From positions 1 to 64,000 of the forward strand of contig NZ_SPQG01000012.1 in NCBI RefSeq assembly GCF_004944975.1: DNA of 64,000 nt, in the 5' to 3' direction. This stretch comes from Halorhabdus amylolytica. Its GTDB lineage: Archaea; Halobacteriota; Halobacteria; Halobacteriales; Haloarculaceae. The notes beneath the pieces were generated by a model. The model was not told where the DNA came from. It saw only the letters and a program-made list of their open reading frames with translations, and did no database searches. A program made the position numbers and the translations under genes. This document shows positions 27,684-46,696 of the stretch, in pieces (the first letter of the stretch is position 1; each line of letters opens with the position of its first letter).

Positions 27684-27757
<74 letters not shown>

Positions 27758-27803
27758 CTCACGATGGCGCTCACAAATTCGTGAGCGCCTGCTGTGCGTT
27801 GCC

Positions 27804-28292
27804 GGTGGAATTGAACCCTGGGAGTCGCAGCCCCGGAATGGCCGAGCGAAGGGAGGCCACATGCCCGGAACGTCTCCATCCGGTTCAATCCCCATCCGGC
27901 CCGCTAAACTTTTCGGCGTCGGGTTTCCTCGCGAGCCTCCGGCTCGCTGCGGGAACCTCTCCTTGAAAACTTTAGTATTCAAAAACCGGACGCTCACTCC
28001 GTTCGCGTCCGGCGAAACGACTCGCTTCGCTCGTCGTATACTTCTCTTGGGAATTGAGCCCTGGAAGTCACAACCCGCGTAGCGAAGCGAGCAGAAATGT
28101 CTTCACTCGGTTCAATTCTCATCTGGCCCGTGAGACTTCTTCGAGCGATAGCGAGCAGTGTCGAACGCATGGGGTGGGAATTGAAGTAGACGAATCACAG
28201 CCCGCACAGTGACTGTAGGAAGAGAGCAGGACTGTCTCGGCGTCGTTCGGCGTTCGCGGATTCTTCGAATCCGCTCTCCCATCCGGTCCGCT
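27804..28292. repeat. Three degenerate tRNA-Lys 3'-end copies, integration footprints
   Basis: GGTTCAATCCCCATCCGGCC (27882-27904, one mismatch to the tRNA), GGTTCAATTCTCATCTGGCC (28109-28130, two mismatches) and CTCCCATCCGGTCCGC (from 28276) are copies of the tRNA end. Each is preceded 60-100 bp upstream by an inverted T-arm copy such as GGAATTGAACCC (27807), GGAATTGAGCCC (28050) and GGAATTGAAG (28176). They look like attachment sites left by elements that integrated at this tRNA and were lost. No integrase gene remains. Confidence 0.75.
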
Positions 28293-28978: not shown

Positions 28979-30199
28979 ATGTTCAACGAAACCAAGCCAG
29001 TAGATCGAACGACATCACAACCACGTCCAGCCCAGTCACCCGTCGCAACTGTCGATTCCTCCCCGGAGACCACTGGCGTGTCAGTCCTCATTCCAACGTA
29101 CAACGAGCGAGAAAATATCACCACAGTTGTCACTGAGTGTCTCAAAGCCCTTCCATCGTCGGCGTTCGAGCTGGAAGTGATCGTCGTTGACGACGATTCC
29201 GAGGACTATACGTGGCAGTATCCCGAGCGGCTGTTCGGTGATGATCCGCGAGTGCGGGTCATCCGCCGTCAGTCGAGCGAGAAAGGGTTGGCTCAGTCGA
29301 TTACTGACGGCTTTGGGGCCGCGACACACGATTTCTGTGCGGTTATCGACGCCGATCTACAGCACCCGCCAGAGAAACTCCCTGAACTCCTTGACGCCCT
29401 CAAAGAGGGGGCAGATGTCGCTATCGGGAGTCGTCACGTCGCCGGTGGCGGTATCGAGAACTGGCCCCTGTGGCGAAAGATCGTCAGCAGGGGGGCAACG
29501 ACCTGCGCGGGCGTGGCAATCCCCGACGCACGCCGGATATCGGACCCGATGTCGGGATTTTTCGCCGTTCGACGGAGCGTCATCGAGGATGTCGATCTCG
29601 ACCCCCAGGGGTACAAGATCCTCTTGGAGATCCTCGGCAAAGGTGACTACGATGCGGTGACGGAAGTCCCCTACCGCTTTAGGCAGCGAGAACGCGGCGA
29701 GAGCAAACTGACCGCCGAGGAGTATCAGAATTTCCTCGAACACGTCGGACAACTCGCCGTCGCCAGCCGCAATCTCGACGAGGTCATCGATCCGATGCGA
29801 GCGGTTCGCGGTGCCGAGTTCGCCTTCGTCGGCGCGACCGGCTCGGCCGTGAATATGCTCGTGTTCGTTCTGGTGGTCAGTACGAACGCACACTTTCTGC
29901 TGGCCGGATTGGTCGCGTTTCTGGCAGCGGTGAACTGGAACTTCGCCGGCAACTGGCTGGTGACCTACGACCGCCCGTCCGGGAATCTTCTCAGGCAGTA
30001 CGCGACGTTCCATGGCGTCTCAGTCGTCGGTTTTGTCGCGTATACAGGCACGCTCACGGTGGGGGCAATCAGTGGCCTCCCGTTGCTGATTGCCAACCTG
30101 TTCGCGATCATCGCCGGCTCTGGTATCAATTTCTTCGGGACGGAGACGTCGGTCTTCCCGACCGGGGCAACACGCGAGCCCGTATCGGGGCAGGTGTAA
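28979..30199 (+). CDS. GT2 dolichyl-phosphate sugar transferase fused to GtrA
   Basis: The 406-residue protein joins a DPM1-like GT2 domain (VSVLIPTYNERENI at 34-47, VVDDDSED, catalytic DADLQHPPE near 120) to a GtrA domain with four membrane helices from about residue 275. DPM1-type enzymes move mannose or glucose from a nucleotide sugar to dolichyl phosphate. GtrA helps flip or present the lipid-linked sugar. It would feed lipid-linked donor to the GT39-type half of the fusion two genes downstream. The epimerase gene follows after three bases. Confidence 0.87.
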   Translation: MFNETKPVDRTTSQPRPAQSPVATVDSSPETTGVSVLIPTYNERENITTVVTECLKALPSSAFELEVIVVDDDSEDYTWQYPERLFGDDPRVRVIRRQSSEKGLAQSITDGFGAATHDFCAVIDADLQHPPEKLPELLDALKEGADVAIGSRHVAGGGIENWPLWRKIVSRGATTCAGVAIPDARRISDPMSGFFAVRRSVIEDVDLDPQGYKILLEILGKGDYDAVTEVPYRFRQRERGESKLTAEEYQNFLEHVGQLAVASRNLDEVIDPMRAVRGAEFAFVGATGSAVNMLVFVLVVSTNAHFLLAGLVAFLAAVNWNFAGNWLVTYDRPSGNLLRQYATFHGVSVVGFVAYTGTLTVGAISGLPLLIANLFAIIAGSGINFFGTETSVFPTGATREPVSGQV

Positions 30200-30202
30200 T
30201 GC

Positions 30203-31186
30203 ATGGATGGTCTTCACGATGAGTCGGCGACGGGATCGACGCCGGCGGTATCGGCCGCGACGATAGCAGGCAACGATATACTCGTCACTGGCGGCGCAGG
30301 CTTTATCGGCTCGAACCTGGCGAACGCGCTCGCCGGGCGAAACGATGTCGTCGTCGTCGACGACGGATCGCTCGGAATCGAAGAGGCGCTCGATGAGGAT
30401 GTCGAACTCGTCGAACGGAGCGTCCTCGAACCGGATCTCCCGACGGCTGTCGACGTGTGCTTTCATCTCGCCGGACTGTCGTCGTACTCGGCACACGAAT
30501 CGGATCAGACGGCTGGTGTCCGGGTGAACCTGGAAGGGTTCGTGAACGTCCTCGAACAGGCTCGAAAAGACGGCTGTAGTGACGTCGTCTATGCCTCTAC
30601 GATCTCGGTTTACGACGATCCGACGGCACCCACCGAGACGGCGGTCGCGGCCACGACCGGCTGTGAGGCATCGTGCCTCGCACGCGAGCGTTACGCGGAG
30701 TATTTCGCGTCTCACTACGGACTGAACGTGGCCGGACTGCGACTGACGACGGTCTATCAGGCATACCGGAACAGTCACGCTGGGGGGCCAGCGTACCCGA
30801 ACGTCGTCGCGGAGCTGGCCGACACAATCGCACACGGTCGGCGACCGGTGCTGTACGGGAGTGGCGAACGGGTCCGGGATTTCACCCACGTCGAAGACGT
30901 GGTCAGTGGCCTCATCGCGGCAGCGAACCACCGATTGACGGGTGTCTACGACCTCGGAACCGGACGGGGAGTAACGAGCAACGAGTTGGTGGCGATGCTC
31001 ACGGACACTCTCGACAGGCCGGTACAGCCAACGTACGTCGACCGACCGACGCCGGATGGCGTGCTCCCGGCCTGCGGCGTCGCAGACCCCTCGAAATTCC
31101 ACGCAGCAACCGGGTGGGAACCGGAGATTCCGCTCGAATCGGGAATCGAACGTGTGTGTCGTCAACACGAGGTGCCGTCGCCATGA
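30203..31186 (+). CDS. NAD-dependent epimerase/dehydratase-like protein lacking YxxxK
   Basis: The 327-residue protein is an extended SDR with a normal NAD loop (VTGGAGFIGS, 28-37), ASTISVY strand and VRDFTHVEDVV sugar-nucleotide motif. The catalytic YxxxK, expected before LARERYAEYF, reads CEASC: Cys154 and Cys158 take the places of Tyr and Lys. Normal 4-epimerase or 4,6-dehydratase chemistry should fail. It may be a binding or regulatory subunit, or use new chemistry. The stop overlaps an ATG (ATGA, 31183-31186), but that frame is closed after 42 codons. Confidence 0.82.
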   Translation: MDGLHDESATGSTPAVSAATIAGNDILVTGGAGFIGSNLANALAGRNDVVVVDDGSLGIEEALDEDVELVERSVLEPDLPTAVDVCFHLAGLSSYSAHESDQTAGVRVNLEGFVNVLEQARKDGCSDVVYASTISVYDDPTAPTETAVAATTGCEASCLARERYAEYFASHYGLNVAGLRLTTVYQAYRNSHAGGPAYPNVVAELADTIAHGRRPVLYGSGERVRDFTHVEDVVSGLIAAANHRLTGVYDLGTGRGVTSNELVAMLTDTLDRPVQPTYVDRPTPDGVLPACGVADPSKFHAATGWEPEIPLESGIERVCRQHEVPSP

Positions 31187-31217
31187 GCGGCACTGTTTCC
31201 GTTGACCTACCCGACCA

Positions 31218-34200
31218 GTGCGAGGTCTCGATTTGCCGACGATCGTCGCGACGACAGTTGCACAGGATCGAGAAACGACGGCGAAAGCGGCCACAGAGCG
31301 GACTATGCTGACAGGAATAACCGCCGCCGACGCGTTGCTCACACTGTCGGTCTTCTACGGAGTTGCATGGCTGATGACCAATACGTACATTTTCTCTCCA
31401 GTGGTCGGGGCAGTCCTTACCCGTGTTTGGACTGGTGTCAGGACCCGGGATGTGGCGTTCGTCTCGACCGAGAACATCACGATCAAGGACCCGTCGGTCT
31501 ATCCGGAAATAGATGTCCTGGTACCTGGATACGAGGAACACGAGGTGATCCATCAGGCGATCCAGTCGATCCGGGAGACCGCTTACCCGGACGGGAAGAT
31601 CAATTTGACTGTCCTGCTGGAGCCGGACGATCAGCGGACGATAGAACGGGTCAGGTCACTGCAAGAGGAGTACACACTCGATCTCGTCATCGTGCCAGCG
31701 GCGTATCCGGGGTCGCCGAACAAGCCACGGGCGCTCAACTACGGCTACGAACAGACGACCGCGGAAATCGTGGGAATCATCGATGCCGAGAACGTTGTCA
31801 GTTCTGATCTCTTCGAGAAGGTTGCCAAGGCGATCACAGTCGAGGGTAACGACTACGTCCAGGGGATGGTCGATATGGCCAACGAAGACGACGGCTGGAA
31901 GAACCTCGTTTTTCGAGCCGAGTACGGATGCTGGTACCGGCTTATCGTCCCGGCGTTCAAGCGTATGGGGTTTCCGATCCCACTCAGCGGGACGACGTGC
32001 TTTTTCACCCGCGACTTGCTCGCGGATATCGCGACCCGACGCGACGATCGCAAGGGAAGTCCCCACAGCGACAGCGACCGGTCGTGGCTCGCTGAGAACG
32101 GGCTCACGGGGGTCACGCCCTGGGACCCGAAGAACGTCACCGAGGACTTCGAGATGGGGCTGTATCTCTGGCTTACCGATTACGAGTTCGGACTCCTCGA
32201 TGCAGTCACCAAGGAGGAATCACCCCAGACAGTTACGAACTGGATGAAACAGCGAACCAGGTGGCAGAAGGGCAAGCTGTTCACCTTTCTGGACTTCCTC
32301 AAGAATCCGGCAGGATCGGCTCGACAGCGATTTCACGTCCTCTGGCAATCGTTTCTGCCACACGTCGGTCCGCTGAATATCATCGGGCTCACGCTACTGG
32401 TCGGCATCGGGACGGCGCTACAGTTCTCCCCCGGAATCACCGCCGTCGAGTGGCTTTTGCAGCTGTCATTGACGTTTCTGGTCGCCGGGCTGCTTTCCTT
32501 TAGCGTCGGCTACTGGCTGGCTTCGACCAAGCCAAGCGGGGGGAAAGCGCTTCGGTCGGTGCTGGTCGGCGTGACGGTCCCGGTCTACTGGCTCCTCCAG
32601 TGGGCGGCAGACGTCCGGGCATTCAAACAAACTGCAGTCGGCGACCTCGACTGGGAGAAGACAGTCCATAAAGACAGCGGTCGGTTCAGGGCACTACAGG
32701 GCGGCGCCGAGGGGCCGAGCACGTCGCTTCGGGCTAGCCTCGGCAGCACGCTCCGGCGACACGTCCTGTTGGTTCCGATACTCGGGGCGGGGCTCCTGTT
32801 GCGGCTTCCGCAACTCGGACGAAGTCTCTGGCTCGATGAGGCCTACTCGATCGTCGTCCGGGGCTCACAGCCACTGTACGGAGTTATCGCGATGGTCGAA
32901 CCCCATCCACCGCTGTACTACATGCTGTTGCACGGCTGGATGGGACTGTTCGGGCAGTCCGAACTGGTGACACGGTCCCTGTCGGTCCTCATCGGACTCT
33001 GTTCGATCGCGGCGATGTACGCGCTGTCGTCATATGTCTACGACCGGCGGGCCGGCCTGGTCGCGGCGCTAGTCATGGCGACCTCGACGCTGCAGATCCA
33101 GTACTCCCAGACGGTTCGAATGTACATTCTGATCGTTCTGCTGACGGCGCTGTCGTGTTATCTCTACCTCCGCCTGCTGGACTCGAAATCCCTGGAAAAC
33201 CAGTTCGGATACGGGATCGTGACGCTGGCGCTACTGTACACCCACATCTACGGGAGTTTCATTCTGCTCGCACAGTGTCTCCATCTCGGAATTTTTCTCG
33301 TCCAGCATCGGCGGCGGGCGATCGTGCCCGTCGCACGAGTATTCAAGGTGGCCGTCGCAGCGGGCTTGCTGTTCCTTCCGTGGGTACTCCTCATGCTCGT
33401 GCCGAACTTCATCCTCGCCGACAGCGGCGGTCCGACGGCGTGGGTGACACTGCCCGACCTCCACACGCTCCGTGACATCAGCTACGCCTACGCGAACGTG
33501 CCAGTAAACTACCCGATCATCGATTATACCGGGCAACAGCAACTCGCTTCGAGAGTAATCCTTGGCGGGTTCGCACTCGGGCTCGGCTATCTCGTTGTCC
33601 GGTCGATACGAAAGCGAGTAGCGCTGTGGCGTGAGACTGCCGAGGACGGACTCCTCCTCACCGATGGTCAGGGTAAACAGTCCCCAGACGGCGGTCTCGC
33701 TGGTCTCGAACCGCCAGGGGGCGTAAGTCTTGCAACCTGCGTGATCGTCTCGACAACGCTGGTTCCGTATCTCCTCTCGTATCTCCTGTTCCCGCTGTTG
33801 GTGGTGCGATACGCCGTCGCTGGGTTCGTCGGGTTCACGCTGATCCTGTCACGGATCGTCTCGGCGCTGTCAAGCAAGAAGGTACAGATCGGAGTGGCCC
33901 TGGTAGTGGTCTTGCTGGCCGCTCCCGGTATCGGGACCTACTACGGGTCGGACACTGCCGAGGACTGGCAGACTGTGGGCGACAAGCTGTCGGGAGCGAA
34001 CCTGACGGAGGACGACCTCGTGGTGTACTCTCCCAACTCGAAACTTCCGTTGTCGTACTATCTGCCGGCTTCCGAGCGGTCCCGAGCAAGTAACGTCACT
34101 TACGCCAACGGGTCAAAGGTCCCTCGAGCTCTCTCGAAGGGGAACTTCACGACGGTCTGGGTCGTTGCCTACGACAACAACCCGACCGAGGGACAACTGG

Positions 34201-34376
34201 TTTCCCACCAAGCGTACGAGTTCGAAAACGTCACACAGGCTGGCGAGAACCTCGCGTTGATGCGGTACGCCCGGACAGACCCGCCGGCCAACGAGACGTC
34301 GAAACCCCGTCAGCGCGGCACCACGTCGCTCAGCGACTCGTTGCGCGCTCGACCCGGGCTTACAAGAGGTTGGTGA
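31218..34376 (+). CDS. GT2 glycan synthase fused to GT39/PMT-type glycosyltransferase
   Basis: A 1052-residue two-enzyme membrane protein. Residues 35-60 are a membrane helix. A processive-type GT2 follows with DAEN (189-192), EDFEMG (309-314) and QRTRW (345-349), then helices to about 470. From about 510 comes a second polytopic domain of the PMT/ArnT class with LWLDEAYS (538-545) and HPPLYY (563-568), then many helices and a C-terminal outside loop. The GT2 half resembles cellulose/hyaluronan-type synthases, while the second half uses lipid-linked sugars. I use GTG 31218; ATG 31305 is possible. Confidence 0.82.
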   Translation: MRGLDLPTIVATTVAQDRETTAKAATERTMLTGITAADALLTLSVFYGVAWLMTNTYIFSPVVGAVLTRVWTGVRTRDVAFVSTENITIKDPSVYPEIDVLVPGYEEHEVIHQAIQSIRETAYPDGKINLTVLLEPDDQRTIERVRSLQEEYTLDLVIVPAAYPGSPNKPRALNYGYEQTTAEIVGIIDAENVVSSDLFEKVAKAITVEGNDYVQGMVDMANEDDGWKNLVFRAEYGCWYRLIVPAFKRMGFPIPLSGTTCFFTRDLLADIATRRDDRKGSPHSDSDRSWLAENGLTGVTPWDPKNVTEDFEMGLYLWLTDYEFGLLDAVTKEESPQTVTNWMKQRTRWQKGKLFTFLDFLKNPAGSARQRFHVLWQSFLPHVGPLNIIGLTLLVGIGTALQFSPGITAVEWLLQLSLTFLVAGLLSFSVGYWLASTKPSGGKALRSVLVGVTVPVYWLLQWAADVRAFKQTAVGDLDWEKTVHKDSGRFRALQGGAEGPSTSLRASLGSTLRRHVLLVPILGAGLLLRLPQLGRSLWLDEAYSIVVRGSQPLYGVIAMVEPHPPLYYMLLHGWMGLFGQSELVTRSLSVLIGLCSIAAMYALSSYVYDRRAGLVAALVMATSTLQIQYSQTVRMYILIVLLTALSCYLYLRLLDSKSLENQFGYGIVTLALLYTHIYGSFILLAQCLHLGIFLVQHRRRAIVPVARVFKVAVAAGLLFLPWVLLMLVPNFILADSGGPTAWVTLPDLHTLRDISYAYANVPVNYPIIDYTGQQQLASRVILGGFALGLGYLVVRSIRKRVALWRETAEDGLLLTDGQGKQSPDGGLAGLEPPGGVSLATCVIVSTTLVPYLLSYLLFPLLVVRYAVAGFVGFTLILSRIVSALSSKKVQIGVALVVVLLAAPGIGTYYGSDTAEDWQTVGDKLSGANLTEDDLVVYSPNSKLPLSYYLPASERSRASNVTYANGSKVPRALSKGNFTTVWVVAYDNNPTEGQLVSHQAYEFENVTQAGENLALMRYARTDPPANETSKPRQRGTTSLSDSLRARPGLTRGW

Positions 34377-34560
34377 CGGACCGTGACCGGCCCATACCGC
34401 TGGCTGTGAGAGGCTAACGATATTCTCCATCCCGAAGTGAGGTTCCATCAGTTGTGGTCGTGGCATCGGATTCTCCCTCTGAGAGCCGGTAGTATCACAG
34501 GGGGTCGACACAGCGTGTATCGGCGTCGGTCAGAAGGCGACTCCGAGCGAGCGAGAGCTG

Positions 34561-35655
34561 TCAGTTGTCGGCAAGCAATTGTTTGACGAACCCGCCCATG
34601 TACCGGTCGCCCGTACGGAGCGACCCGTCGGTATCGAACATTGCCGGGCTCCACAGCGAGTCTGCACACCAGGCCGTCCAGTTTACGTTCGGAATCGAGT
34701 CGAAGTACTCCGCGATTGACTCGCCGAAGCCGGAAGTCGTACCGACGATATACTCGGGTTTGTCGTCGTCATTCACGTAGCCCCATTCGGTGACGAAAAG
34801 CGGGACCTCCTCGGCAGCAGCGGCGATCGCGTCCACGTCGTAGGATTCGAAGTGACCGGGATACAGATGCACCGAATAGAGGATATTCTCGTCCTCGAAC
34901 GGATTGTCGTCGGCGTACTTTACGTACGACGACCATCGGGGAGATCCAACGATGATCGGCGTTTCGGGCGCGTGTAATCGGATTTGGTCGACCCACGGTT
35001 GTGCAGTCTCTCGCCAGGCGTCCCAGTCCGCTCTCCCGTCTCCGCTGGGTTTTGTCGGTTCGTTGAATAGCTCGAACAGTACGTGCTCGTCGTCGGCGAA
35101 CGCGGGTGCGACGGCGTTCCAGAACGTCCGTATCTGCTGGTCGATCTCTTCGGTGTCCCACCGTTCGACCTGGTGGTAATCGAGGATGACGTAACAGCCC
35201 CGATCGCCGAGCAGATCCACGGTCGGTCGGAGATACTCGTCGATCGTCCGCTGGAGTCCGACCGATTCGAGAGAATGCTGAACAGGAACCCGGATGACGC
35301 GCGGATGCCACCCTCTTTCGGGATCGGTGAGCCGATGGAGAGTGTCTCCGTAGCTCGCATCCCCCATCTCCTGGTAGTTCCGTCCCCAGTACGGGTCGAC
35401 GGTATTGAGTCCGTATAGTGACACGCGGTCTCCGTTCGGGTCTTTCAACCACTTCCCTTCGACGTGGAGTCGAGGTGTTGGCATCGACTGGCCCGAACCG
35501 GATGTCGGCACACCCCCAGCAAACACAGTCGACGAAGAAACCACTGCCCATGACAGCATACCACCGCTTGCCACACCGGCCAGAAACCGTCTTCGGGTGG
35601 CCGAGATGTCGCCGCGGCCGGCAGATTCCTGCCGTGGGACAGTTTGGTCTGTCAT
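34561..35655 (-). CDS. Secreted GH5 endoglucanase-like hydrolase
   Basis: The 364-residue enzyme has a Tat signal (RRRFLAGVASGGMLSWAVVS, from residue 21) without lipobox, then a GH5 barrel. The acid/base Glu is in LFNEP (E199) and the nucleophile Glu in FVTEWG (E290); VRVPV and LDYHQ motifs are also in place. It should cut beta-1,4-glucan or related beta-glycans outside the cell. No carbohydrate-binding module is present. It converges on the GT fusion gene 184 bp away, the sort of synthase-plus-hydrolase pair seen in bacterial cellulose loci (BcsA with BcsZ). Confidence 0.88.
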   Translation of the reverse strand: MTDQTVPRQESAGRGDISATRRRFLAGVASGGMLSWAVVSSSTVFAGGVPTSGSGQSMPTPRLHVEGKWLKDPNGDRVSLYGLNTVDPYWGRNYQEMGDASYGDTLHRLTDPERGWHPRVIRVPVQHSLESVGLQRTIDEYLRPTVDLLGDRGCYVILDYHQVERWDTEEIDQQIRTFWNAVAPAFADDEHVLFELFNEPTKPSGDGRADWDAWRETAQPWVDQIRLHAPETPIIVGSPRWSSYVKYADDNPFEDENILYSVHLYPGHFESYDVDAIAAAAEEVPLFVTEWGYVNDDDKPEYIVGTTSGFGESIAEYFDSIPNVNWTAWCADSLWSPAMFDTDGSLRTGDRYMGGFVKQLLADN

Positions 35656-36978: not shown

Positions 36979-38151
36979 ATGGGCCAGCTAGAGACGCGAA
37001 ATCTGACAAAGATATTTCAGGACAGTGGGCAGGAGATCGTCGCCGTCGACGATCTCGATATCACCATCGAAGACGGGGAGTTCATCACCTTGGTCGGCCC
37101 TTCCGGTTGTGGGAAGTCGACAACGTTGCGTAGCATCGCCGGACTGGAAACCCCGACGACGGGAGAGGTGTATCTCGACGGTCAGGAGATCACCGACCGG
37201 AAGCCCAAGGCACGGGACATGGCGATGGTGTTCCAGTCGTACGCGCTGTATCCCCACATGACGGCACGGGAGAACATGGCGTTCGGATTGCGGATGGCGA
37301 CGGATCTCTCCGCCGAGGAGATCGATCGACAGGTGACGGAGACAGCGGAAATGATGGAGATAGGTAATCTCTTGGACAAGAAACCTGGCGACCTCTCGGG
37401 TGGTCAACAACAGCGGGTTGCGCTGGGACGAGCGATCGTCCGTGATCCCGAGGTGTTCCTGATGGACGAGCCACTGTCGAACCTGGATGCGAAACTACGG
37501 ACTCAGATGCGAACGGAACTGCAGGCACTGCAGCAGGATCTCGATATTACGACGCTGTATGTAACACACGACCAGACGGAAGCGATGACGATGAGTGACC
37601 GGATCGTGATTCTCGACGATGGTCGACTCCAGCAGATCGGAACGCCATTGGAGTGTTACCACCAACCGGTAAACCAGTTCGTCGCAGGGTTCATCGGTTC
37701 ACCCTCGATGAACTTCTTCGAAATCGAGCTGAACACGCAGGGAGAGCCGACGTTCGTCCACGACGGATTCGAGATGAAGATCGACGAGGATGTCCTGACT
37801 GATGTCGAGGGCCACGAGTCACTGACACTCGGGATCCGGCCGGAGGACATCGAGGTCGTCAAAGCCGATGCACGGAACGCGATAACGAAGCAGGTCCAGG
37901 TCGCAGAGCCACTCGGTGAAGTGACATACGTCCACCTAGAGATCGGTCAGCAGCAGTGTACAGCGACCCTGCAGGGCGACCTCGTATTCGACGCCGGACA
38001 GACGTTGTCGATCCGGTTCCCGCAGGACCGCATCCACGTTTTCGACGGCCAAACTGGTAACGCACTTCGGAACCGTGAGCCACCGGCCCGAGATGATATC
38101 GAGGCGTTCGCCGAGGGGCAAGTCGACGAGACGGCCAGAAGCGACGCGTGA
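36979..38151 (+). CDS. Sugar ABC transporter ATP-binding protein (UgpC/MsmK type)
   Basis: This 390-residue ATPase has Walker A GPSGCGKST (40-48), LSGGQQQR, Walker B VFLMDEPLSNLD and switch VTHDQTEA. A C-terminal OB-like MalK regulatory domain follows from about residue 240 (FIGSPSMNFFEIEL ... LTLGIRPEDIEV). It energises the importer encoded just downstream. Transcription is probably leaderless from the TATA element at 36950. Unlike most haloarchaeal sugar operons, the ATPase gene comes first, 150 bp ahead of the binding protein, which has its own promoter. Confidence 0.92.
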   Translation: MGQLETRNLTKIFQDSGQEIVAVDDLDITIEDGEFITLVGPSGCGKSTTLRSIAGLETPTTGEVYLDGQEITDRKPKARDMAMVFQSYALYPHMTARENMAFGLRMATDLSAEEIDRQVTETAEMMEIGNLLDKKPGDLSGGQQQRVALGRAIVRDPEVFLMDEPLSNLDAKLRTQMRTELQALQQDLDITTLYVTHDQTEAMTMSDRIVILDDGRLQQIGTPLECYHQPVNQFVAGFIGSPSMNFFEIELNTQGEPTFVHDGFEMKIDEDVLTDVEGHESLTLGIRPEDIEVVKADARNAITKQVQVAEPLGEVTYVHLEIGQQQCTATLQGDLVFDAGQTLSIRFPQDRIHVFDGQTGNALRNREPPARDDIEAFAEGQVDETARSDA

Positions 38152-38300
38152 CGTATTGAGTAGTGTGTCTTCGCCCGTGGGATAACGTTTCGCTGTGATT
38201 CTACCGGGGACGATACTCGAATCCCGCTGGGGATCGGCCTCGTCATATAACTTAACTTTATCGAAGATTATTTACTATATAAGTTCGAACGCCACTCTGT

Positions 38301-39695
38301 ATGCCACAGAACCAGAGCGGGACAGGTATCACTCGGCGGCGGATGATCGGCGTGACTGGCGCTGGTGTCGCAACGACATTGCTCGCCGGCTGTGGGAGTG
38401 GGGGTACAGCAGAGACCGACTCCGACGGTGGAACGGAAGAGAGTACAGATAGTGGCGGTGGCAGTGGCGAACAAGCACTCATGTGGGAGTACGGGTTCCC
38501 GAACACACAGGGTGTGGAGCCCGTCTGGCGAAACACGTTCGAGGCCAAATACGAGGAGCTGGCCGGGGAGGAACTCACGATCAGTCGCTTCGCCTACGAG
38601 GACCTGCGCCAGAAGTTCCTGACTGGTGCACGTACGGGCGATCCGGACGCGATCGAAGGGACGTTGAGCCACTTCTCGGAGTATCTGGCTGCGGGCCACC
38701 TCGCGCAACTCGACGACCTGGCGAACGAACTCGATTACTTCGACGGCTACATCGACAATGCGATCGACGCGATGCGGTATCAGGGTGACCTCTACGCGCT
38801 TCCCTACGAGGGCAACGCCAGAGCCTTCTTCGTCCGGCAGGACATTCTCGACGAACTCGGACAGGACATCCCGGAAACGGTGTCGGACTTCCACGAGGTC
38901 GGCCGGATGATCAACGAGGAATACGACGACGTCGTCGCCTATCACAACTGCACGAAAGACGGCAGCGTCCGGGCGTTCCAGGAGTTCATGAGCCACATCT
39001 ACCAGCATACGGACAACATGTACGTCCCGGAAGGGGACTCGTGGTCGCTCAACGTCGAGGCGGAGACGATCGGACAGGTGTTCGACAACTGGTACTACCA
39101 GATGTACGCTGTCGACAACCCGGTCGCGGACCCAGACGACCTCGGGACGGGTTGGCAGACGAACGATCCTGGGTACATCAATGGAAATTACGCGTTCATC
39201 GAGGGCGGGACCTGGATTCGTAACTGGACGTCCGGGGAGAACATCAACGACAGCGACACGGCCCAGGATATACTGGACAACAAGACCCAGATCGCACACT
39301 TCCCGCGCGGTGAGGGTGCATCCAAGGGGACGTTCCTGGAGATCAAGCCGGTCATGGCCAACGCCCATTCCGATCAGCTCGAGAAAGCCAAGACAGCGGT
39401 GCAGGCGTATACCCACCCTGATGTCCTCAGCGAGGGCATGGCACAGGATCCTGAAGCGTCCGGATCGGCGATGACGCCCGTCCACGAGGATGTCGAGTCG
39501 ACGATCGACAGCGAAAACTGGGAGGCGCTCACGGAAATCTTCGAGACCGGCAGGGCCCTGGCACAAGTTACGTGGGGACCAGTCAGAGAAGAGTTCTACA
39601 CGTATATGCAACAAGTGGCCTACGGCGAGACGGATCCGTACGATGCCGGCGAACAGTTCCACTCGGCTCTCCAGGACTTAGAGAGCGAAATATAG
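38301..39695 (+). CDS. Sugar ABC transporter binding lipoprotein
   Basis: The 464-residue protein has a Tat lipoprotein leader (TRRRMIGVTGAGVATTLLAG, Cys31), a Ser/Gly/Glu-rich linker to about 60, then a family-1 sugar-binding fold (FAYEDLRQKFLTGARTGDPD, YALPYEGNARAFFV, SGEN, FPRGEGASKGTFLEIKP). It is lipid-anchored outside the cell and brings oligosaccharide to the two permeases. The neighbours (GH27, GH4) suggest alpha-galactosides. A TATA element ACTATATAAG at 38273-38282 predicts a leaderless message starting at the ATG. Confidence 0.9.
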   Translation: MPQNQSGTGITRRRMIGVTGAGVATTLLAGCGSGGTAETDSDGGTEESTDSGGGSGEQALMWEYGFPNTQGVEPVWRNTFEAKYEELAGEELTISRFAYEDLRQKFLTGARTGDPDAIEGTLSHFSEYLAAGHLAQLDDLANELDYFDGYIDNAIDAMRYQGDLYALPYEGNARAFFVRQDILDELGQDIPETVSDFHEVGRMINEEYDDVVAYHNCTKDGSVRAFQEFMSHIYQHTDNMYVPEGDSWSLNVEAETIGQVFDNWYYQMYAVDNPVADPDDLGTGWQTNDPGYINGNYAFIEGGTWIRNWTSGENINDSDTAQDILDNKTQIAHFPRGEGASKGTFLEIKPVMANAHSDQLEKAKTAVQAYTHPDVLSEGMAQDPEASGSAMTPVHEDVESTIDSENWEALTEIFETGRALAQVTWGPVREEFYTYMQQVAYGETDPYDAGEQFHSALQDLESEI

Positions 39696-39706
39696 GCCTG
39701 CCATAG

Positions 39707-40618
39707 ATGTCCACGCAATCTGCAGGACTGAGCCGGTACGGAGAGGAGTTCAAGACGTTTCTCTCGGAGACGTGGCTCGGCTACGTGATGGTCATTCCGG
39801 CGACGCTTATCCTGGCTGTCATCATCGGATACCCGATTCTCCGTGGGATCCAACTGGCGTTTTACGAGGCGTCACTGCTCAATCCGGAACAGATGCAGTA
39901 CATCGGTCTGGAGAACTTCCTTCGCCTCCTGGAGGATACGACGTTCCAGGGCGCACTGTGGCGGACGATCCTGTTGACGGGGATCGTCGTCTCGCTGCAG
40001 TATCTGCTCGGTCTCGGTCTCGCACTGGTACTCCGTGAGAAGGTGCCGGGTGTCGAGATATTCCGGAGCCTCTCGATGGTGACCTGGGTGATCCCGGTCA
40101 TCGTGATGGTGATCATCTTTCGGTTCCTCGTCCAGAACGGGTTCGGACCCGTGAACATCATTCTCGGGAACCTGGGAATGGAGACGTCCTACTGGTTCGG
40201 ACAGCGGGGTCCGGCGTTCATCCTGGTGATCATCATGCACGTCTGGCGCAACGTCCCGTTTTACGCGATCGCGTTGCTCGCCGGCATGACGGCGATCCCG
40301 AAAGAACAGTACGAGGCCGCCCGGCTGGACGGTGCCGGTGCACTCCAGCGGTTCCGGTACGTCACGCTGCCCCAGATATCGACGGTGTCGATGATCATGA
40401 TCATCCTGCACGTGACGTTCACGTTCAAGAACTTCGACATCGTGTATCTGTCGACGGGTGGCGGACCCCTGGGGTCGACGGAAGTACTCGCCACGTACGT
40501 TTACAAACAGGCATTCGAACAGTACGCGCTCGGCTACGGTGCCAGTATCGGCGTGGTGATGTTGATCATCATGCTCGTGTTCACCGTCGTCTACGTACAG
40601 TACGAGAGTGCAGAATAG
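39707..40618 (+). CDS. Sugar ABC transporter permease, MalF/UgpA type
   Basis: The 303-residue permease has six membrane helices and the coupling EAA loop (YEAARLDGAGALQRFRYVTLP, near 206-226) that docks onto the ATPase. It starts 11 bases after the binding-protein stop. Together with the next gene it forms the heterodimeric channel. The helix order and length are those of MalF-class permeases without the extra periplasmic P2 domain. Confidence 0.92.
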   Translation: MSTQSAGLSRYGEEFKTFLSETWLGYVMVIPATLILAVIIGYPILRGIQLAFYEASLLNPEQMQYIGLENFLRLLEDTTFQGALWRTILLTGIVVSLQYLLGLGLALVLREKVPGVEIFRSLSMVTWVIPVIVMVIIFRFLVQNGFGPVNIILGNLGMETSYWFGQRGPAFILVIIMHVWRNVPFYAIALLAGMTAIPKEQYEAARLDGAGALQRFRYVTLPQISTVSMIMIILHVTFTFKNFDIVYLSTGGGPLGSTEVLATYVYKQAFEQYALGYGASIGVVMLIIMLVFTVVYVQYESAE

Positions 40619-40630
40619 GAGCGAAATCCA

Positions 40631-41524
40631 ATGGCAAACACTGACGACGCTTCCACCGGAGTGGTACAGCGTATCGACGCGTGGCTGGACGAAGACATGT
40701 CGGTCCGGCGTGCAGGGATCGTCTACGTCGTGCTGGGTCTGTATTTCGCGTTCCTGTTGTTACCGATCGTCTACATGCTTCTGGCGTCGTTCACGTCCCA
40801 GGACTTCCTGTTCTCGCCCGAGTTGATCCCGTCGCTGAGCGATCTGACGATCAACAACTACGTCTCGGTACTGACGATCGGCGAGTTTCAGCGGTACTTC
40901 GTCAATTCGACGATCATCGCCGTCGCCACGACTGCACTTGTATTGACAGTCGGAATCCTGGCCGGGTACTCGATGAGTCGGTTCGAGTATCCTGGCCGAA
41001 GAGGACTGCTCTATGCGTTTCTCTCGACGCAGATGCTTCCGATCGTCCTCATCCTTATTCCGTTCTTCCTGCTGATGTACGATCTGAACTTGATAGACTC
41101 ACACCTCGGGATTGTCGTCGCCCATTCGGTCATCGGCATCCCGCTCGGCACGTGGCTGTTGAAAGGCTACATCGACGATATCCCCGAATCGCTCGACGAA
41201 GCAGCCATGATGGACGGGGGTTCTCGATTTGACGTTCTCGTCCGGATCATCATTCCGCTGTCGATGCCCGGGATCGCAGTCGCCGGGTTCTATACGTTCA
41301 TCCTCTCGTGGAACGACTTCCTGCTCGTCTCGATTCTCTCACAGACGGAAGCGACGCGTACACTCCCGTTCGGTCTCCAGCTGTTCCAGGCCCAGAATGC
41401 TGTCGCCTGGAACCTGCTCATCACCGCCGCGATCATCACGATGGTCCCCGTCGTCTTGTTGTTCGCGCTCGCCCAGAAGTGGGTCGTCGAAGGGCTCGCC
41501 AGCGGCGGCATGAAAGGGATGTGA
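40631..41524 (+). CDS. Sugar ABC transporter permease, MalG/UgpE type
   Basis: The second permease, 297 residues, has six helices and the EAA loop near LDEAAMMDGGSRFDVLVRII (about 188-207). Its C-terminal run of WNDFLLVSILSQTEATRTLP and the GLASGGMKGM end are typical of MalG-class partners. It follows the first permease by 12 bases, completing a four-gene importer. No terminator is obvious before the GH27 gene 195 bp on. Confidence 0.92.
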   Translation: MANTDDASTGVVQRIDAWLDEDMSVRRAGIVYVVLGLYFAFLLLPIVYMLLASFTSQDFLFSPELIPSLSDLTINNYVSVLTIGEFQRYFVNSTIIAVATTALVLTVGILAGYSMSRFEYPGRRGLLYAFLSTQMLPIVLILIPFFLLMYDLNLIDSHLGIVVAHSVIGIPLGTWLLKGYIDDIPESLDEAAMMDGGSRFDVLVRIIIPLSMPGIAVAGFYTFILSWNDFLLVSILSQTEATRTLPFGLQLFQAQNAVAWNLLITAAIITMVPVVLLFALAQKWVVEGLASGGMKGM

Positions 41525-41719
41525 CGAGCCTCGCGGTCTTTTTCGCGGTGTCACAAGACAGTGTCGCCGAACACGCCCCGTCGTCGACGGGCCAGTATTC
41601 CGTCGAACGTCGGACCGGACCCCTCACTGTCGCTATACGCGACGGTTCTCGACGTAGTATGTGGATAGATTGTTATGGTTTTAGCCAAATTTAAATATCA
41701 GCCTTTCCCATTTCGATCC

Positions 41720-42898
41720 GTGTTCGCAACAGGATCCCGCGCGTTAGCAGCGACGCCACCGATGGGCTGGAACTCGTGGAACGCGTTCAGTTGTGCTGTG
41801 ACCGAAGAGGACATCCGATCGGCAGCGGACAGACTCGTCGAGACCGGCCTCCGGGACGCGGGCTACGAGTATCTCGTCGTCGACGATTGCTGGATGGACG
41901 ACGAACTGGACGACGGTTACCTGCGGCCACATCCCGAGGACTTCCCGAGTGGGATCGAGGCGCTGGCCGAGTACGTCCACGATCGCGATCTGAAGTTCGG
42001 GATCTACTCGTCCGCCGGGCGGGTCACGTGTCAGGGATATCCGGCGAGTCTCGGCCACGAACGTAAACACGCCCGGCAGTTCGCCGACTGGGGCGTCGAC
42101 TATCTCAAGTACGACAACTGTGGCGATCACGAGGGGAAAGACGCGCTCGCACGCTACAGCGCGATGGGGAAAGCACTCGCCAAAGTCGATCGCGATATCG
42201 TCTACAGCATCTGTGAGTGGGGTCGAAACGAACCGTGGCGCTGGGGTCGAAACGCCGGAGGCCACCTCTGGCGGGCGACCCACGATATCGTCGCGAAGTG
42301 GTCGACGGAGGACACGGAGTTCGGACTCGGGATCGCCGACATTATCGATCAGATGGACGACAGAGACATCGCACCCTCCCATGGGCCGGGAGGATGGAAC
42401 GACCCGGACATGCTACAGATCGGCAACGGACCGGACTCCGGGCAGTCCAAACTGGAAGACGTCACTGTCGAGCGGGGACTGACACCGGCAGAAGAACGCA
42501 CGCACTTCAGCTTCTGGTGTCTGTTTGCCGCGCCGTTGATGGCGGGGAACGACCTCGTGGAGATGGATGACCGCACGCTGGCACTGCTGACCAACGAGGA
42601 CGCAGTAGCGATCAATCAGGACCCGCTGGGTATCCAGGGAACGAGAGACGGCCGTCTCGGTGAGACCGAAGTGTGGAGCAAGCGACTCACCGACGGGAGG
42701 TGTGCAGTGATACTGTTCAATCGTGGACGGACTCCGGCAACGATCGAAACGACCGTCGAAACGGTCGACATGTCAGTCGACGCCGCGACGTACACCGTCG
42801 AGGACGTCTGGGAGGACGACGAGTGGCAGACGAGCGGTACTCTGCACGCGACAGTCGACCCACACGATGTCGCGTTGTTCCGGGTTTCACCCGAGTGA
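41720..42898 (+). CDS. GH27 alpha-galactosidase
   Basis: The enzyme begins near TPPMGWNSWNAF, the GH27 hallmark. The nucleophile Asp is in YLKYDNC (D132) and the acid/base Asp in WRATHDI (D189). It hydrolyses terminal alpha-galactose from oligosaccharides with retention. The C-terminal beta domain starts near residue 290. I start it at GTG 41720, about 26 bases after the TATA element TTTAAATA (41690-41697), giving 392 residues and a leaderless message; an ATG at 41675 precedes that box. There is no signal peptide, so it acts on imported sugars. Related family members with alpha-N-acetylgalactosaminidase or isomaltosidase activity cannot be excluded. Confidence 0.87.
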   Translation: MFATGSRALAATPPMGWNSWNAFSCAVTEEDIRSAADRLVETGLRDAGYEYLVVDDCWMDDELDDGYLRPHPEDFPSGIEALAEYVHDRDLKFGIYSSAGRVTCQGYPASLGHERKHARQFADWGVDYLKYDNCGDHEGKDALARYSAMGKALAKVDRDIVYSICEWGRNEPWRWGRNAGGHLWRATHDIVAKWSTEDTEFGLGIADIIDQMDDRDIAPSHGPGGWNDPDMLQIGNGPDSGQSKLEDVTVERGLTPAEERTHFSFWCLFAAPLMAGNDLVEMDDRTLALLTNEDAVAINQDPLGIQGTRDGRLGETEVWSKRLTDGRCAVILFNRGRTPATIETTVETVDMSVDAATYTVEDVWEDDEWQTSGTLHATVDPHDVALFRVSPE

Positions 42899-42977
42899 CG
42901 ATCGACCGACGTGTCGCACCTAGCTTCGGTCGTTCGAAGAGTGAAACACTTTTATTCAACGCTGACGAATACGAACT

Positions 42978-44360
42978 ATGCCGACGATAACGTTTATCGG
43001 AGCAGGAAGTATGGTGTTCGCGACGAACCTCGTCGGGGATCTGTTGTCCTACGACGCTCTTTCGGACAGCGAAATCAGGTTGATGGACGTCGACGAACAC
43101 CGACTGGAACAGACCTACCAGGTCGCCACGGCCATGGTGGAAAACGAAGGGCTGGAAGCCAGTGTGGAGGCGACGACGGACCGTCATGCAGCGCTCGAGG
43201 GGGCGGATTACGTCCTCAACATGATCAACGTCGGCGGGACCGACCCCTTCGAAAACGAGATCAGAATACCCGAGAAGTACGGGATCAAGCAGGCGATCGG
43301 TGATACGACAGGGCCGGGTGGTGTGTTCCGTGGTCTCCGGACGATTCCGACGGTCCTCGACATCGCGACCGACATGGAAGCACTGTGTCCCGACGCACTG
43401 TTGATGAACTACACCAATCCGATGTCGATCGTGTGTAAGGCCGTCTACGAGGCAACCGACATCGACGTTGTCGGGCTCTGTCACTCGGTCCCGCATACAG
43501 TCGAGGCCATCGCCGAGTACGTCGGGGTCCCGGAAGAGGAGCTAGATTACTGGGTTGCAGGGATCAACCACATGGCGTTCTTCCTGGAGTTGACCCGCGA
43601 CGGGGAGTCGCTCTATCCTGCACTGTGTGAGGCCTCTCTGGAGGAGGAGACGTACCGCGAGGATACGGTGCGCTTCGAAATGATGCGCCACTTCGGGTTG
43701 TTCCCGACCGAATCGAGCCACCACATGAGCGAGTACGTCCCGTACTTCCGCACCGACGAGGCGACGATCGAGAAGATGACTGGGACGGGTTATGCCGAGC
43801 GCATGCCGACAGCGACGTATCTGAACGGTTGGAAGGAACGCTCCGAACAGCGCGACGAACCGGAACTCGACATCGACCTCTCGACAGTCGGGGTCGAACG
43901 ATCCGACGAGTACGCCGCACGCCTGATCCACTCCCTGGAAACCGACACGGAACGACGGTTCAATCTCAACGTCCCTAACCACGACGATATGATCACTAAT
44001 TTGCCCAACGACGCCTGTGTCGAGGTCCCGGTGTTCGCTGACGGGGCAGGCCTGCACCCGTGTGCGATCGGTGAACTCCCGACCCAATTAGCCCCACTCG
44101 TACAGCAACACACGGCCGTCTACGAACTGGCTGTCGACGCAGCACTGGAAGGGGATCGTGAAAAAGTCCACAGAGCGATCAAGCTCGATCCTCTCTCGTC
44201 GGCAGCCTGTACGCTATCGGAACTTCACGAGATGACCGAGGAGTTGATACAGGCCAACAGCGCATATCTCCCCACCCTGGAGTTCTCCGACGGAATCGAG
44301 GGGGACTCTCGATCGCGAATGGTCAGTGACGCGGACCTCGGCCAGGGACCTTCTCGATAG
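42978..44360 (+). CDS. GH4 alpha-galactosidase (MelA type)
   Basis: The 460-residue protein belongs to GH4, which uses NAD+ and a divalent metal. It shows an N-terminal Rossmann loop (FIGAGSMVFA), NYTNPM (144-149), the metal-binding Cys in GLCHS (C168) and His in INHMAFF (H198). Its mechanism is redox elimination and addition, unrelated to the GH27 enzyme upstream. GH4 also contains glucosidases and glucuronidases; the CHS motif fits the MelA group. A TATA element CTTTTATTC at 42950 predicts a leaderless transcript. It stops inside the operator at 44360. Confidence 0.87.
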   Translation: MPTITFIGAGSMVFATNLVGDLLSYDALSDSEIRLMDVDEHRLEQTYQVATAMVENEGLEASVEATTDRHAALEGADYVLNMINVGGTDPFENEIRIPEKYGIKQAIGDTTGPGGVFRGLRTIPTVLDIATDMEALCPDALLMNYTNPMSIVCKAVYEATDIDVVGLCHSVPHTVEAIAEYVGVPEEELDYWVAGINHMAFFLELTRDGESLYPALCEASLEEETYREDTVRFEMMRHFGLFPTESSHHMSEYVPYFRTDEATIEKMTGTGYAERMPTATYLNGWKERSEQRDEPELDIDLSTVGVERSDEYAARLIHSLETDTERRFNLNVPNHDDMITNLPNDACVEVPVFADGAGLHPCAIGELPTQLAPLVQQHTAVYELAVDAALEGDREKVHRAIKLDPLSSAACTLSELHEMTEELIQANSAYLPTLEFSDGIEGDSRSRMVSDADLGQGPSR

Positions 44361-44493
44361 TTCATACGACATGAACGCGTGGGCCAGGTAGATCCCTAAA
44401 TCACCCCGAAGATGCTGAGAATATTGCCCCAGACCGCACCGATGACGCTACAAGGACGAAGATGGCTCGACAGATGGTTCATACAACATGAAC
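44360..44493. promoter_or_regulatory. Two GTTCAT-N5-ATGAAC operators before the IclR gene
   Basis: GTTCAT-acgac-ATGAAC (44360-44376) and GTTCAT-acaac-ATGAAC (44477-44493) are perfect 6-bp inverted repeats, 117 bp apart. Both lie between the GH4 stop and the IclR start at 44525. The placement suggests autoregulation by the IclR protein, with DNA looping possible between the two sites. Confidence 0.7.
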
Positions 44494-44524
44494 AATTATG
44501 TTGCCTCAGCCGTACACCTCCGAT

Positions 44525-45304
44525 ATGAAATCAGCCACGATCCCGGCGGCAGGGGAGTTCGACCGCCAAACTGCGAAGACGTCCGTCACGACGTTTCGTA
44601 TAATCGAGGCTCTGGAACGGCGTTCGAAGGCACGTGTGAGCGACCTCGCGAGGGAGCTGGATCTGGCAAAAGGGACCGTACACAAGCACCTCACGACGTT
44701 ACAGAAAGTGAACTACGTGGTTCAGGAGGACGATAGTTACCGGTTGAGTCTTCGATTCCTCGGGCTCGGAACCACTACGCGGGCTACTCTCGACGTGTAC
44801 CAGATCGCCTACTCTTCACTGGAGAAACTGGCCGAAGCGACGGGAGAGGTCGCGAGCATCATGATTCCCGAACACGGATACGGCGTGTACGTCGTCAGGG
44901 TGAGCTCGGAGGGGCGTCCCGATATCGATATTCAGGAGGGTGAAACGGTGCCGCTGACGGCGACGGCGGGCGGAAAGGCGATCCTCTCTTACATGGACGA
45001 CGAAGCTCGCACCCGGATTTTCGAGCAACACGGGCTTCCGGAGCTGACGGATAACACGATCACCGAGCTCGACGAACTAAAGACTGAACTCCAGCGCATT
45101 CGGAACAAACGACTGTCCTTCGATAGGGGGGAGTACCGGACCGACCAGCACTGTGTCGGGGCCCCGCTGACCGACTTCGGGGGGAACATTTTGGGTGCCG
45201 TGACGGTATCGGGTCCGGCGTCCCGGATGACCGAGAAGTCGACGACGGCCGATTTCGCGAGTCTCGTCGGCAGCACCGCCGATGCGATCCAGAGTCGCCT
45301 CTAG
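44525..45304 (+). CDS. IclR family transcriptional regulator
   Basis: The 259-residue regulator has an N-terminal winged helix (TTFRIIEALERRSKARVSDLA, recognition helix AKGTVHKHLTTL) and an IclR effector domain ending near PASRMTEKSTTADFASLVGS. It probably senses a sugar released from the imported galactoside and controls the ABC and glycosidase genes. Start 44525 (MKSATIPAAGE) is preferred over 44498 because the longer N-terminus overlaps the operator region. Haloarchaeal IclR proteins (for example the pentose regulator XacR) commonly act on nearby sugar genes; the ligand is unknown here. Confidence 0.88.
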   Translation: MKSATIPAAGEFDRQTAKTSVTTFRIIEALERRSKARVSDLARELDLAKGTVHKHLTTLQKVNYVVQEDDSYRLSLRFLGLGTTTRATLDVYQIAYSSLEKLAEATGEVASIMIPEHGYGVYVVRVSSEGRPDIDIQEGETVPLTATAGGKAILSYMDDEARTRIFEQHGLPELTDNTITELDELKTELQRIRNKRLSFDRGEYRTDQHCVGAPLTDFGGNILGAVTVSGPASRMTEKSTTADFASLVGSTADAIQSRL

Positions 45305-45364
45305 GAGATCCCGCATGAACGTATCGAGGACTACATACAAGTCACTCCGTGCCAATCATAGCGT

Positions 45365-46696
45365 ATGAACAGCGAGGAAACCCCACCGAATGTCGTCGTC
45401 GTGGTGACGGACCAACAGCGGTGGGACAGCCTGGGGACGTACGGGAACCCGATGGGGTTGACCCCGACGCTAGACGAACTCGCCCGGGACGGAACGACTC
45501 TCGAAGTCGCGATCTCTCCACAACCGGTGTGTGGGCCGTTCCGGGCTACCTTTCAGACAGGCAAATACGCCACGGAAACGGGCGTCTGGAAGAGCGCGAT
45601 TCCGCTAGAAGGCGAACAAACCCTCGCAGAGATATTCAAAGAAGCCGGGTACGACGTCGGGTACGTCGGTAACTGGCACCTTGCGAGTACCTTCGACGAC
45701 CCGGTCCCGCCCGCACAGCGCGGCGGGTACGACGATTTCTGGCTTGCCGCAGACGTCCCGGAGTTCACGACCCAGCCCAACGACGGGACGCTGTACGATG
45801 CGGACGGGCAAGCAGTCACCTTCGATCAGTACCGCGTCGACGCGTTCACCGAGTTCGCGATCGAGGGCATCGAACAACTCTCGGAGCCGTTTTTCCTCGT
45901 CGTGGGATACGTCGAACCACACGACCAGAACGACAGGTGGACGTTCGTCGCTCCGGAGGACGCTACCCGTCACGACAAGGATCCGTTCGTCCCCGATGAT
46001 CTCCGGAACCGTCCCGGTGAGTGGTACCACGAGTTGCCGGACTATTACGGTATCGTCGAGCGTCTCGACGAAAACGTCGCACGTATTCTCGAAGCGTTGT
46101 CCGCCCGTGGGATTCGGGACAACACGCTGTTCGTCTATACGTCCGATCACGGCTGTCACTTTCGGACTCGGCCCGGAGAACACAAGCGGACGCCGCACGA
46201 ATCCGCGGTCAGAGTTCCCGGGATCCTCTCCGGCCCTGGATTCACCGACGGAGTAGACATCCAGCGCGTGACGAGCGTACTCGATATCCCACCGACGCTA
46301 CTCGACGTGGCTGGGGTCGAGATCCCAGAGACGATGCGCGGGTCGAGCCTGCGTCCGGTCGTCGAGCACGATATCCCCGACGAGGACGGTGCGGCGTTCA
46401 TACAGATCAGCGAGTCTCAGATCGGACGAGCGTTGCGGACAGAGCGCTGGAAGTACGCAGTCGCCGCCCCGACGATGACCGGCTGGCAGGGCGGAAGCGG
46501 CGAACAGTCGAGTGACGTATACGTCGAACGGTACCTCTACGATCTACAGCGTGATCCAGGGGAAACGGTCAATCTCGTCGGTCGACCGGATCACCGTGAC
46601 ATCGCTGACGACCTTCAGAATCGATTGCTGGCCCACATTCGCGAGGTCGAAAACGAATCACCGGATATCAAACCGTTCGACAAAGGTTATCCTTGA
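45365..46696 (+). CDS. Arylsulfatase-family sulfatase
   Basis: The 443-residue enzyme has the type I sulfatase layout: metal-site VVVTDQQRWD near residue 16 and the CxPxR signature CGPFR (56-60), whose Cys must be oxidised to formylglycine. TSDHGCHF provides the second metal site, and an H..K pair follows. It cleaves sulfate esters from sugars. It has no signal, so it should act on small imported sulfated oligosaccharides. No formylglycine-generating enzyme gene is visible in the window. It follows the alpha-galactosidase genes and the IclR gene by 60 bp, suggesting a sulfated galactoside substrate. Confidence 0.88.
   Translation: MNSEETPPNVVVVVTDQQRWDSLGTYGNPMGLTPTLDELARDGTTLEVAISPQPVCGPFRATFQTGKYATETGVWKSAIPLEGEQTLAEIFKEAGYDVGYVGNWHLASTFDDPVPPAQRGGYDDFWLAADVPEFTTQPNDGTLYDADGQAVTFDQYRVDAFTEFAIEGIEQLSEPFFLVVGYVEPHDQNDRWTFVAPEDATRHDKDPFVPDDLRNRPGEWYHELPDYYGIVERLDENVARILEALSARGIRDNTLFVYTSDHGCHFRTRPGEHKRTPHESAVRVPGILSGPGFTDGVDIQRVTSVLDIPPTLLDVAGVEIPETMRGSSLRPVVEHDIPDEDGAAFIQISESQIGRALRTERWKYAVAAPTMTGWQGGSGEQSSDVYVERYLYDLQRDPGETVNLVGRPDHRDIADDLQNRLLAHIREVENESPDIKPFDKGYP

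Follow-up and report, generated by a model that had tools for sequence, protein, structure and literature searches.

A fused GT2-GT39 glycosyltransferase encoded beside a secreted GH5 glucanase in haloarchaea, a possible module for a branched surface polysaccharide

A glycan locus with a two-enzyme fusion

What does a single protein with two glycosyltransferase halves make when its gene lies between those of a lipid-linked sugar donor enzyme and a secreted glucanase? The question is raised by positions 28979-35655 of a 64,000-nucleotide stretch from Halorhabdus amylolytica (contig NZ_SPQG01000012.1, positions 1-64,000, assembly GCF_004944975.1), the whole of which is referred to here as the window. 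Four genes are present in this interval (i.e. DPM1-GtrA, a short-chain dehydrogenase/reductase [SDR], a GT2-GT39 fusion and a GH5 glycanase), and together they probably make a branched surface polysaccharide. The first three are co-directional with small intergenic gaps, the SDR gene beginning 3 bases after DPM1-GtrA, and the GH5 gene is convergent to this run at 184 bases past the stop codon of the fusion.

28979-30199, + strand: DPM1-type GT2 joined to GtrA, 406 residues (Pfam PF00535, E 1.6e-33; PF04138, E 5e-14; DADLQHP motif)
30203-31186, + strand: SDR/epimerase-like protein, 327 residues (PF01370, E 1.2e-38)
31218-34376, + strand: GT2-GT39 fusion, 1052 residues, or 1023 from a probable ATG start at 31305 (single open frame, homologues, AlphaFold model)
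31308-32690, + strand: GT2 half, residues 2-462 of the 1023-residue form (structure matches, motifs)
32745-34280, + strand: GT39 half with a GT-C fold (PMT/ArnT/AglB-like), residues 481-992 (PF13231, structure matches, DE pair)
34561-35655, - strand: secreted GH5 beta-glucanase, 364 residues, with a longer frame reaching 35706 (PF00150, E 2.1e-34)

The genes and families that the original prediction, made from the sequence alone, had placed in this interval were all found there, with Pfam matches (Glycos_transf_2 and GtrA_DPMS_TM, Epimerase, Glyco_tranf_2_3 and PMT_2, Cellulase) that exceed the curated cut-offs in every case. The SDR gene between DPM1-GtrA and the fusion had been left out of its reasoning.

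The fusion is conserved among haloarchaea

The fusion occupies one stop-free frame and is single-copy in its own genome. Full-length homologues with 33-51% identity occur in other haloarchaea, so that a frame join in assembly, which had been named as a finding that would overturn the prediction, is ruled out as the origin of the fusion. Full-length or nearly full-length homologues were detected in ~10 of 391 haloarchaeal genomes, and the fusion is conserved in at least three haloarchaeal families. Named carriers include Halorientalis pallida (two copies), Halonotius roseus, Halohasta salina, Haloferax profundi, Haloferax marisrubri, Haloarcula pellucida, Salinigranum salinum and the metagenome-assembled genome (MAG) QS_1_68_20. 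These named relatives were found by an alignment-based contig scan, a single-protein query having returned none. In an alignment of 12 homologues, >100 positions were invariant, most of them within the GT2 half, and the catalytic residues of both halves were retained in nearly all copies.

Of 146 named relatives, the best 80 were examined in a non-exhaustive search, and none of those with the GT2 frame read whole had a fusion outside the Halobacteria. Across 295 genomes of the phylum, also searched non-exhaustively, matches outside the class comprised one half only, nearly all being stand-alone GT39 proteins of ~500-570 residues. Relatives of the GT2 half alone occur in Haloferax marinum, MAG Ods04, DPANN archaea and bacteria. 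Three apparent further fusions (L006, L032 and L035) were rejected as stand-alone GT39 proteins of ~550 residues within over-long or read-through frames.

Both halves of the fusion have complete folds and catalytic motifs

Structure prediction, which had been proposed as a check on the fusion, returned an AlphaFold model with two complete enzyme folds, and the claim that a GT2 with a QRTRW motif is joined to a PMT/ArnT-type domain stands. In the GT2 half, DAE is located at residues 160-162 (31782-31790), TED at 279-281 (32139-32147), QRTRW at 316-320 (32250-32264) and WEKTVH, a W-x-K-T-x-H motif, at 32652-32669. The QRTRW, TED and KPRALNYG-type motifs are kept among homologues, with QRTRW invariant in all 12 aligned sequences. 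The GT2 half has the GT-A domain with DxD-type, TED and QxxRW motifs that is expected of processive membrane GT2 synthases such as BcsA, hyaluronan synthase, PgaC and NfrB. The closest structural match was PcManGT (Z 25.6, root-mean-square deviation [rmsd] 3.8, 329 residues aligned), level with BcsA (Z 24.6, rmsd 3.5, 372 aligned) and followed by hyaluronan synthase (Z 22.1, rmsd 4.7, 382 aligned). The fusion scored 27.2 bits against a cut-off of 699 for the CelA/BcsA equivalog TIGR03030, and no Pfam match to a PilZ domain was found in it. In a tree of the GT2 half, the BcsA, PgaC and NfrB rows were too long-branched to place the family.

The GT39 half matched PF13231 (E 9.1e-12; 45.9 bits against a cut-off of 26.1) and has a GT-C fold that over residues 480-990 resembles AglB (Z 27.1, rmsd 5.5, 405 aligned), Pmt4 (Z 26.9, rmsd 3.5, 353 aligned) and ArnT (Z 26.1, rmsd 6.4, 417 aligned). 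Its catalytic DE pair (D511/E512; 32835-32840) lies in the first outer loop and is conserved in the 12-homologue alignment, the Asp being lost only in one copy (L054), which also lacks other GT39 residues. That copy (L054:8511-11612) has an intact GT2 half and a degenerate GT39 half (DE changed to SE, RMY lost), as though it had given up decorating.

A predicted enzyme for the lipid-linked sugar donor and an atypical SDR

The DPM1-GtrA protein is predicted from its domains to be a polyprenyl-phosphate sugar synthase with a flippase-like domain. A 64% identical DPM1-GtrA occupies the same position in Haloferax marisrubri. The DPM1 part of the window protein fell far under the NCBIfam cut-offs for AglJ (56.5 bits of 325) and for haloarchaeal dolichyl-phosphate hexose transferase (47.9 bits of 375).

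The SDR retains the glycine-rich nucleotide motif, and by visual assessment of the alignment the catalytic YxxxK position reads C..C in the window and L..S in the homologue from H. marisrubri (L053:7669-8595), where the glycine-rich motif is likewise kept. As YxxxK is lost in both, the SDR is probably not an ordinary epimerase. A third SDR homologue (57%; L139) lies near a GH5 gene at a locus without the fusion.

The paired glycanase differs in type between fusion loci

The N-terminus of the window GH5, as read from the sequence, carries a Tat-type signal (RRRFLAGVASGG). The acid/base Glu is encoded at 35059-35061 and the nucleophile Glu at 34786-34788, and both glutamates (i.e. those of NEP and TEWG) are invariant among aligned GH5 homologues. 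The nearest structures were the beta-glucanases 4hty Cel5A, CjCel5C and SdGluc5_26A (Z ~30), with mannanases at Z ~24, and the top PDB relatives were all glucanases. An endoglycoceramidase identity was set aside, with scores of 17.3 and 22.7 bits against a cut-off of 700. Orthologues with 60-63% identity adjoin the fusion or a fusion remnant in three Halorientalis-type loci.

Other fusion loci carry other glycanases. In L046-L048 the GH5 is of an endoglucanase type with Thermobifida Cel5A as a close relative (E 8e-99), and in L047 it bears CBM5/12 modules; the L063 enzyme is of beta-mannanase type (E 5e-60), and L057 encodes a GH5 that is 35% identical to it. In total, the fusion loci bear three GH5 types plus a GH10 (L057), all from beta-1,4-glycanase families. 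In the GT2 tree, the five glucanase-bearing fusions grouped together with full support, and the two mannanase-bearing fusions fell outside this clade. Among the indirect signs that the hydrolase acts for the product of the synthase, this swap of one kind of beta-1,4-glycanase for another in the same position is the strongest, and the same hydrolase-synthase logic was used by the authors of the CcsZ study (PMC7710045). A secreted beta-1,4-glucanase with a catalytic Glu pair stands beside a synthase gene in conserved linkage, as for CcsZ or BcsZ.

Two further observations concern GH5 genes. At L142:8910-12805, a GH5 that is 35-37% identical to the window enzyme adjoins two other membrane GT2 genes and no fusion. 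In the window, a catabolic cluster at 36979-46696 lies by the GH5 gene (i.e. a sugar ABC transporter with its binding protein, an alpha-galactosidase, a GH4, an IclR-type regulator and a sulfatase).

The gene combination recurs in varied order

The fusion is adjoined by DPM1 and GtrA in 8 of 15 loci (the window, L046, L047, L048, L053, L058, L063 and L138), so that these eight encode the GtrA, DPM1 and GT-C parts of a three-component system together; GH5 also adjoins the fusion in 8 of the 15. As the original prediction had claimed, the fusion neighbours both a donor enzyme with GtrA and a secreted beta-glucanase. Further haloarchaea proved to share this set. The prediction had further asked for the same four-gene order elsewhere; order proved variable, with GH5 placed convergently, divergently or upstream, with DPM1 and GtrA either fused or separate, and with the SDR present in only some loci. 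The fusion-DPM1-GtrA set faces a convergent GH5 in L058, L048 and L138 (the L138 fusion being cut by a contig end) and a divergent one in L046 and L047. GH5, GtrA and DPM1 lie upstream of the fusion in L063, L057 has GH5 and GH10 at one side and GtrA at the other, and L053 has DPM1-GtrA and the SDR without GH5. At L141:4821-6235, a truncated GtrA frame and GH5 are left, with the fusion and DPM1 gone, a remnant that suggests loss.

GH5 is an infrequent family in these archaea, being above the cut-off in just 39 of 292 haloarchaeal genomes. A rough estimate built on this frequency, which takes the GH5 hits as ~130 and the mean genome size as 3.7 Mb, puts the chance of a GH5 within 5 kb at ~0.0014 per locus. 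The association in 8 of 15 loci would then arise by chance with a probability of ~7e-20, or ~2e-7 if it reflects three independent associations in nine lineages.

Function of the locus and alternative explanations

We give about even odds to a reading of the locus as a self-contained module for surface polysaccharide, in which the GT2 half builds, the GT39 half decorates and GH5 trims. The GT2 half would build a beta-1,4-linked backbone from a nucleotide sugar in the cytoplasm and move it across the membrane, with the backbone being glucan-like in the clade of the window. At the outer side of the same membrane, the GT39 half would attach single sugar residues to the chain as it emerges, with a polyprenyl-phosphate sugar as donor. 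The DPM1 part would make this donor, and the GtrA part would aid its membrane crossing. The secreted GH5 would cut the backbone (trimming, release or editing), as do CcsZ in Clostridium and BcsZ in Escherichia coli. Making and decorating the chain would be coupled in one polypeptide, akin to the BcsA-BcsG complex. The genes present, their domain families, the active-site residues and the recurrent neighbourhood are observed; processivity, export, the sugar and linkage of the backbone, its role as the GT39 acceptor and the part played by GH5 are inferences. A broader proposal is more tentative, and we lean somewhat against it: that these fusions are single-chain synthase-decorators, so far restricted to haloarchaea, which polymerise a beta-1,4 backbone and, by means of the GT-C half, branch it with lipid-linked sugar during export, with the type of co-encoded endo-glycanase (glucanase or mannanase) reporting the backbone.

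Several observations weigh against the module. In the model, the GT2 half has ~4 membrane helices, of which one is N-terminal and three follow later. BcsA and hyaluronan synthase have more, and an export channel within one fusion chain is doubtful on this model, although dimer formation or a contribution from the GT39 half could enlarge it. Placement of the two halves relative to each other is unreliable (pLDDT [predicted local distance difference test] 75.5; pTM [predicted template modelling score] 0.50), and the enzymatic roles of all members of the fusion family are predictions from sequence and model. In six loci (L049, L050, L051, L052, L054 and L061), neither GH5 nor GtrA is close to the fusion, and the window GH5 lies next to the sugar-uptake/alpha-galactosidase cluster as well. 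The processive synthase proposed originally is favoured by motifs and fold and disfavoured by the few helices and by PcManGT as the top match. This crenarchaeal mannosyltransferase has been placed in N-glycan biosynthesis by Gandini 2020, as cited in PMC8993221, and is also the best PDB sequence match of the GT2 half (17% identity). The few helices are the chief ground for caution on processivity, because this published N-glycan enzyme has a like compact fold. The GT2 half might be non-processive in the manner of PcManGT and extend a lipid- or protein-linked oligosaccharide (an S-layer N-glycan, an O-glycan or a glycolipid). The GT39 half would then cap it on the outer side with a sugar taken from dolichol phosphate, like AglS, which acts after AglD and AglR in Haloferax volcanii. 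The AglD-AglR-AglS pathway is a haloarchaeal precedent (PMC3871713). This explanation, under which the prediction was to be abandoned, is the most serious of the alternatives, and we judge it rather unlikely: the alignable region of PcManGT shows no QxxRW whereas QRTRW is invariant in the fusions, and an N-glycan gives little reason for the three types of secreted beta-1,4-glycanase encoded next to the fusion. Moreover, the DPM1 parts are far under the NCBIfam thresholds given above, and there is no adjoining oligosaccharyltransferase or further gene for glycan assembly.

Other alternatives detach one enzyme from the set. GH5 could be a feeding enzyme of the adjacent catabolic cluster, with the synthase and GT39-DPM1-GtrA acting as proposed, and some relatives in the same genus do have 6-7 GH5 genes. 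However, GH5 adjoins the fusion operon without this cluster in Halorientalis pallida, Halohasta, Halonotius and two further genomes (G383 and G320), and the genomes G178, G254 and G320 have no second GH5, which makes this improbable. It is more improbable still that proteins or lipids, and not the GT2 product, are the targets of the GT39 half, the fusion being a mere co-localisation device. Protein mannosyltransferases and oligosaccharyltransferases are among its nearest GT-C structures and free-standing homologues of GT39 occur commonly across the phylum, but ArnT, a glycolipid modifier, has an equally close fold, and conservation of the fusion across families suggests coupled action of the halves.

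If the module reading is correct, chain synthesis and lipid-dependent branching are joined in one protein. The gene set names a recurrent module whose paired hydrolase gives a testable prediction of the polymer and, if the hydrolase reports the backbone, the glucanase/mannanase swap beside related synthases would let sequence predict archaeal polysaccharides.

Genomic setting of the locus

Upstream of the locus, a tRNA-Lys gene has its 3' end repeated twice, in degenerate form, in the sequence that comes after it (window 27684-28131), at 27882-27904 with one mismatch and at 28109-28131 with three; none is expected by chance. The G+C (guanine plus cytosine) fraction drops to 0.57 around this region from ~0.63-0.65. 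The copies look like old integration scars, and the glycan locus may lie at an island hotspot.

Comparison with known systems

Every part of the locus belongs to a known kind, and the fusion and gene set are undescribed as far as could be found. The originally suggested novelty of the mix is upheld in that no description of a GT2-GT39 fusion or of the gene set was present in the open-access papers searched, a partial coverage that makes this weak evidence of absence; the same papers offered few data on the genes behind surface polysaccharides of haloarchaea.

Among archaeal systems, PcManGT of Pyrobaculum calidifontis shares the compact cellulose-synthase-like fold but is a single enzyme assigned to N-glycan synthesis, with no GT39 half. 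AglD, AglR and AglS of Haloferax volcanii provide the lipid-phosphate donor, membrane crossing and outer-face transfer for the N-glycan mannose (PMC3871713), a likeness in archaeal donor, crossing and transferase; they differ in having an S-layer N-glycan target, an AglS unfused to a GT2 and no described hydrolase. Three-component glycosylation comprises a cytoplasmic polyprenyl-phosphate sugar synthase, GtrA and an outer-face GT-C (PMC8035078, PMC11127046). Here, too, donor synthase (GtrB/CsbB-type in those systems), GtrA and GT-C are co-encoded, but the GT-C is fused to a backbone-type GT2, and in the window the donor synthase is itself joined to GtrA.

Among synthases, NfrB of the E. coli NfrBA-YbcH exopolysaccharide system shares TED, QxxRW and W-x-K-T-x-H over ~450 alignable residues, the whole GT2 half, a likeness that speaks for a synthase. 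It is at most ~24% identical, has a C-terminal MshEN cyclic di-GMP domain in place of GT39 and lacks a paired GH5. The clostridial CcsZ is a secreted GH5 endo-beta-1,4-glucanase tied to the Ccs cellulose synthase (PMC7710045), a pairing like that of the fusion loci; modification there falls to O-acetylation candidates, and neither a GT-C fusion nor a GtrA/DPM1 partner is described in that paper. The E. coli cellulose system BcsA/BcsZ/BcsG has the GT2 fold, a paired endo-1,4-glucanase gene and, going by PDB titles, a membrane enzyme decorating the nascent chain as a separate protein. In contrast, the haloarchaeal fusion lacks PilZ and the CelA equivalog match, its decorator is a fused sugar transferase where BcsG is a phosphoethanolamine transferase, and its hydrolase is a GH5 where BcsZ is a GH8. 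If the broader single-chain proposal is correct, these fusions would be the archaeal equivalent of modified-cellulose secretion in bacteria, with other parts doing the decorating.

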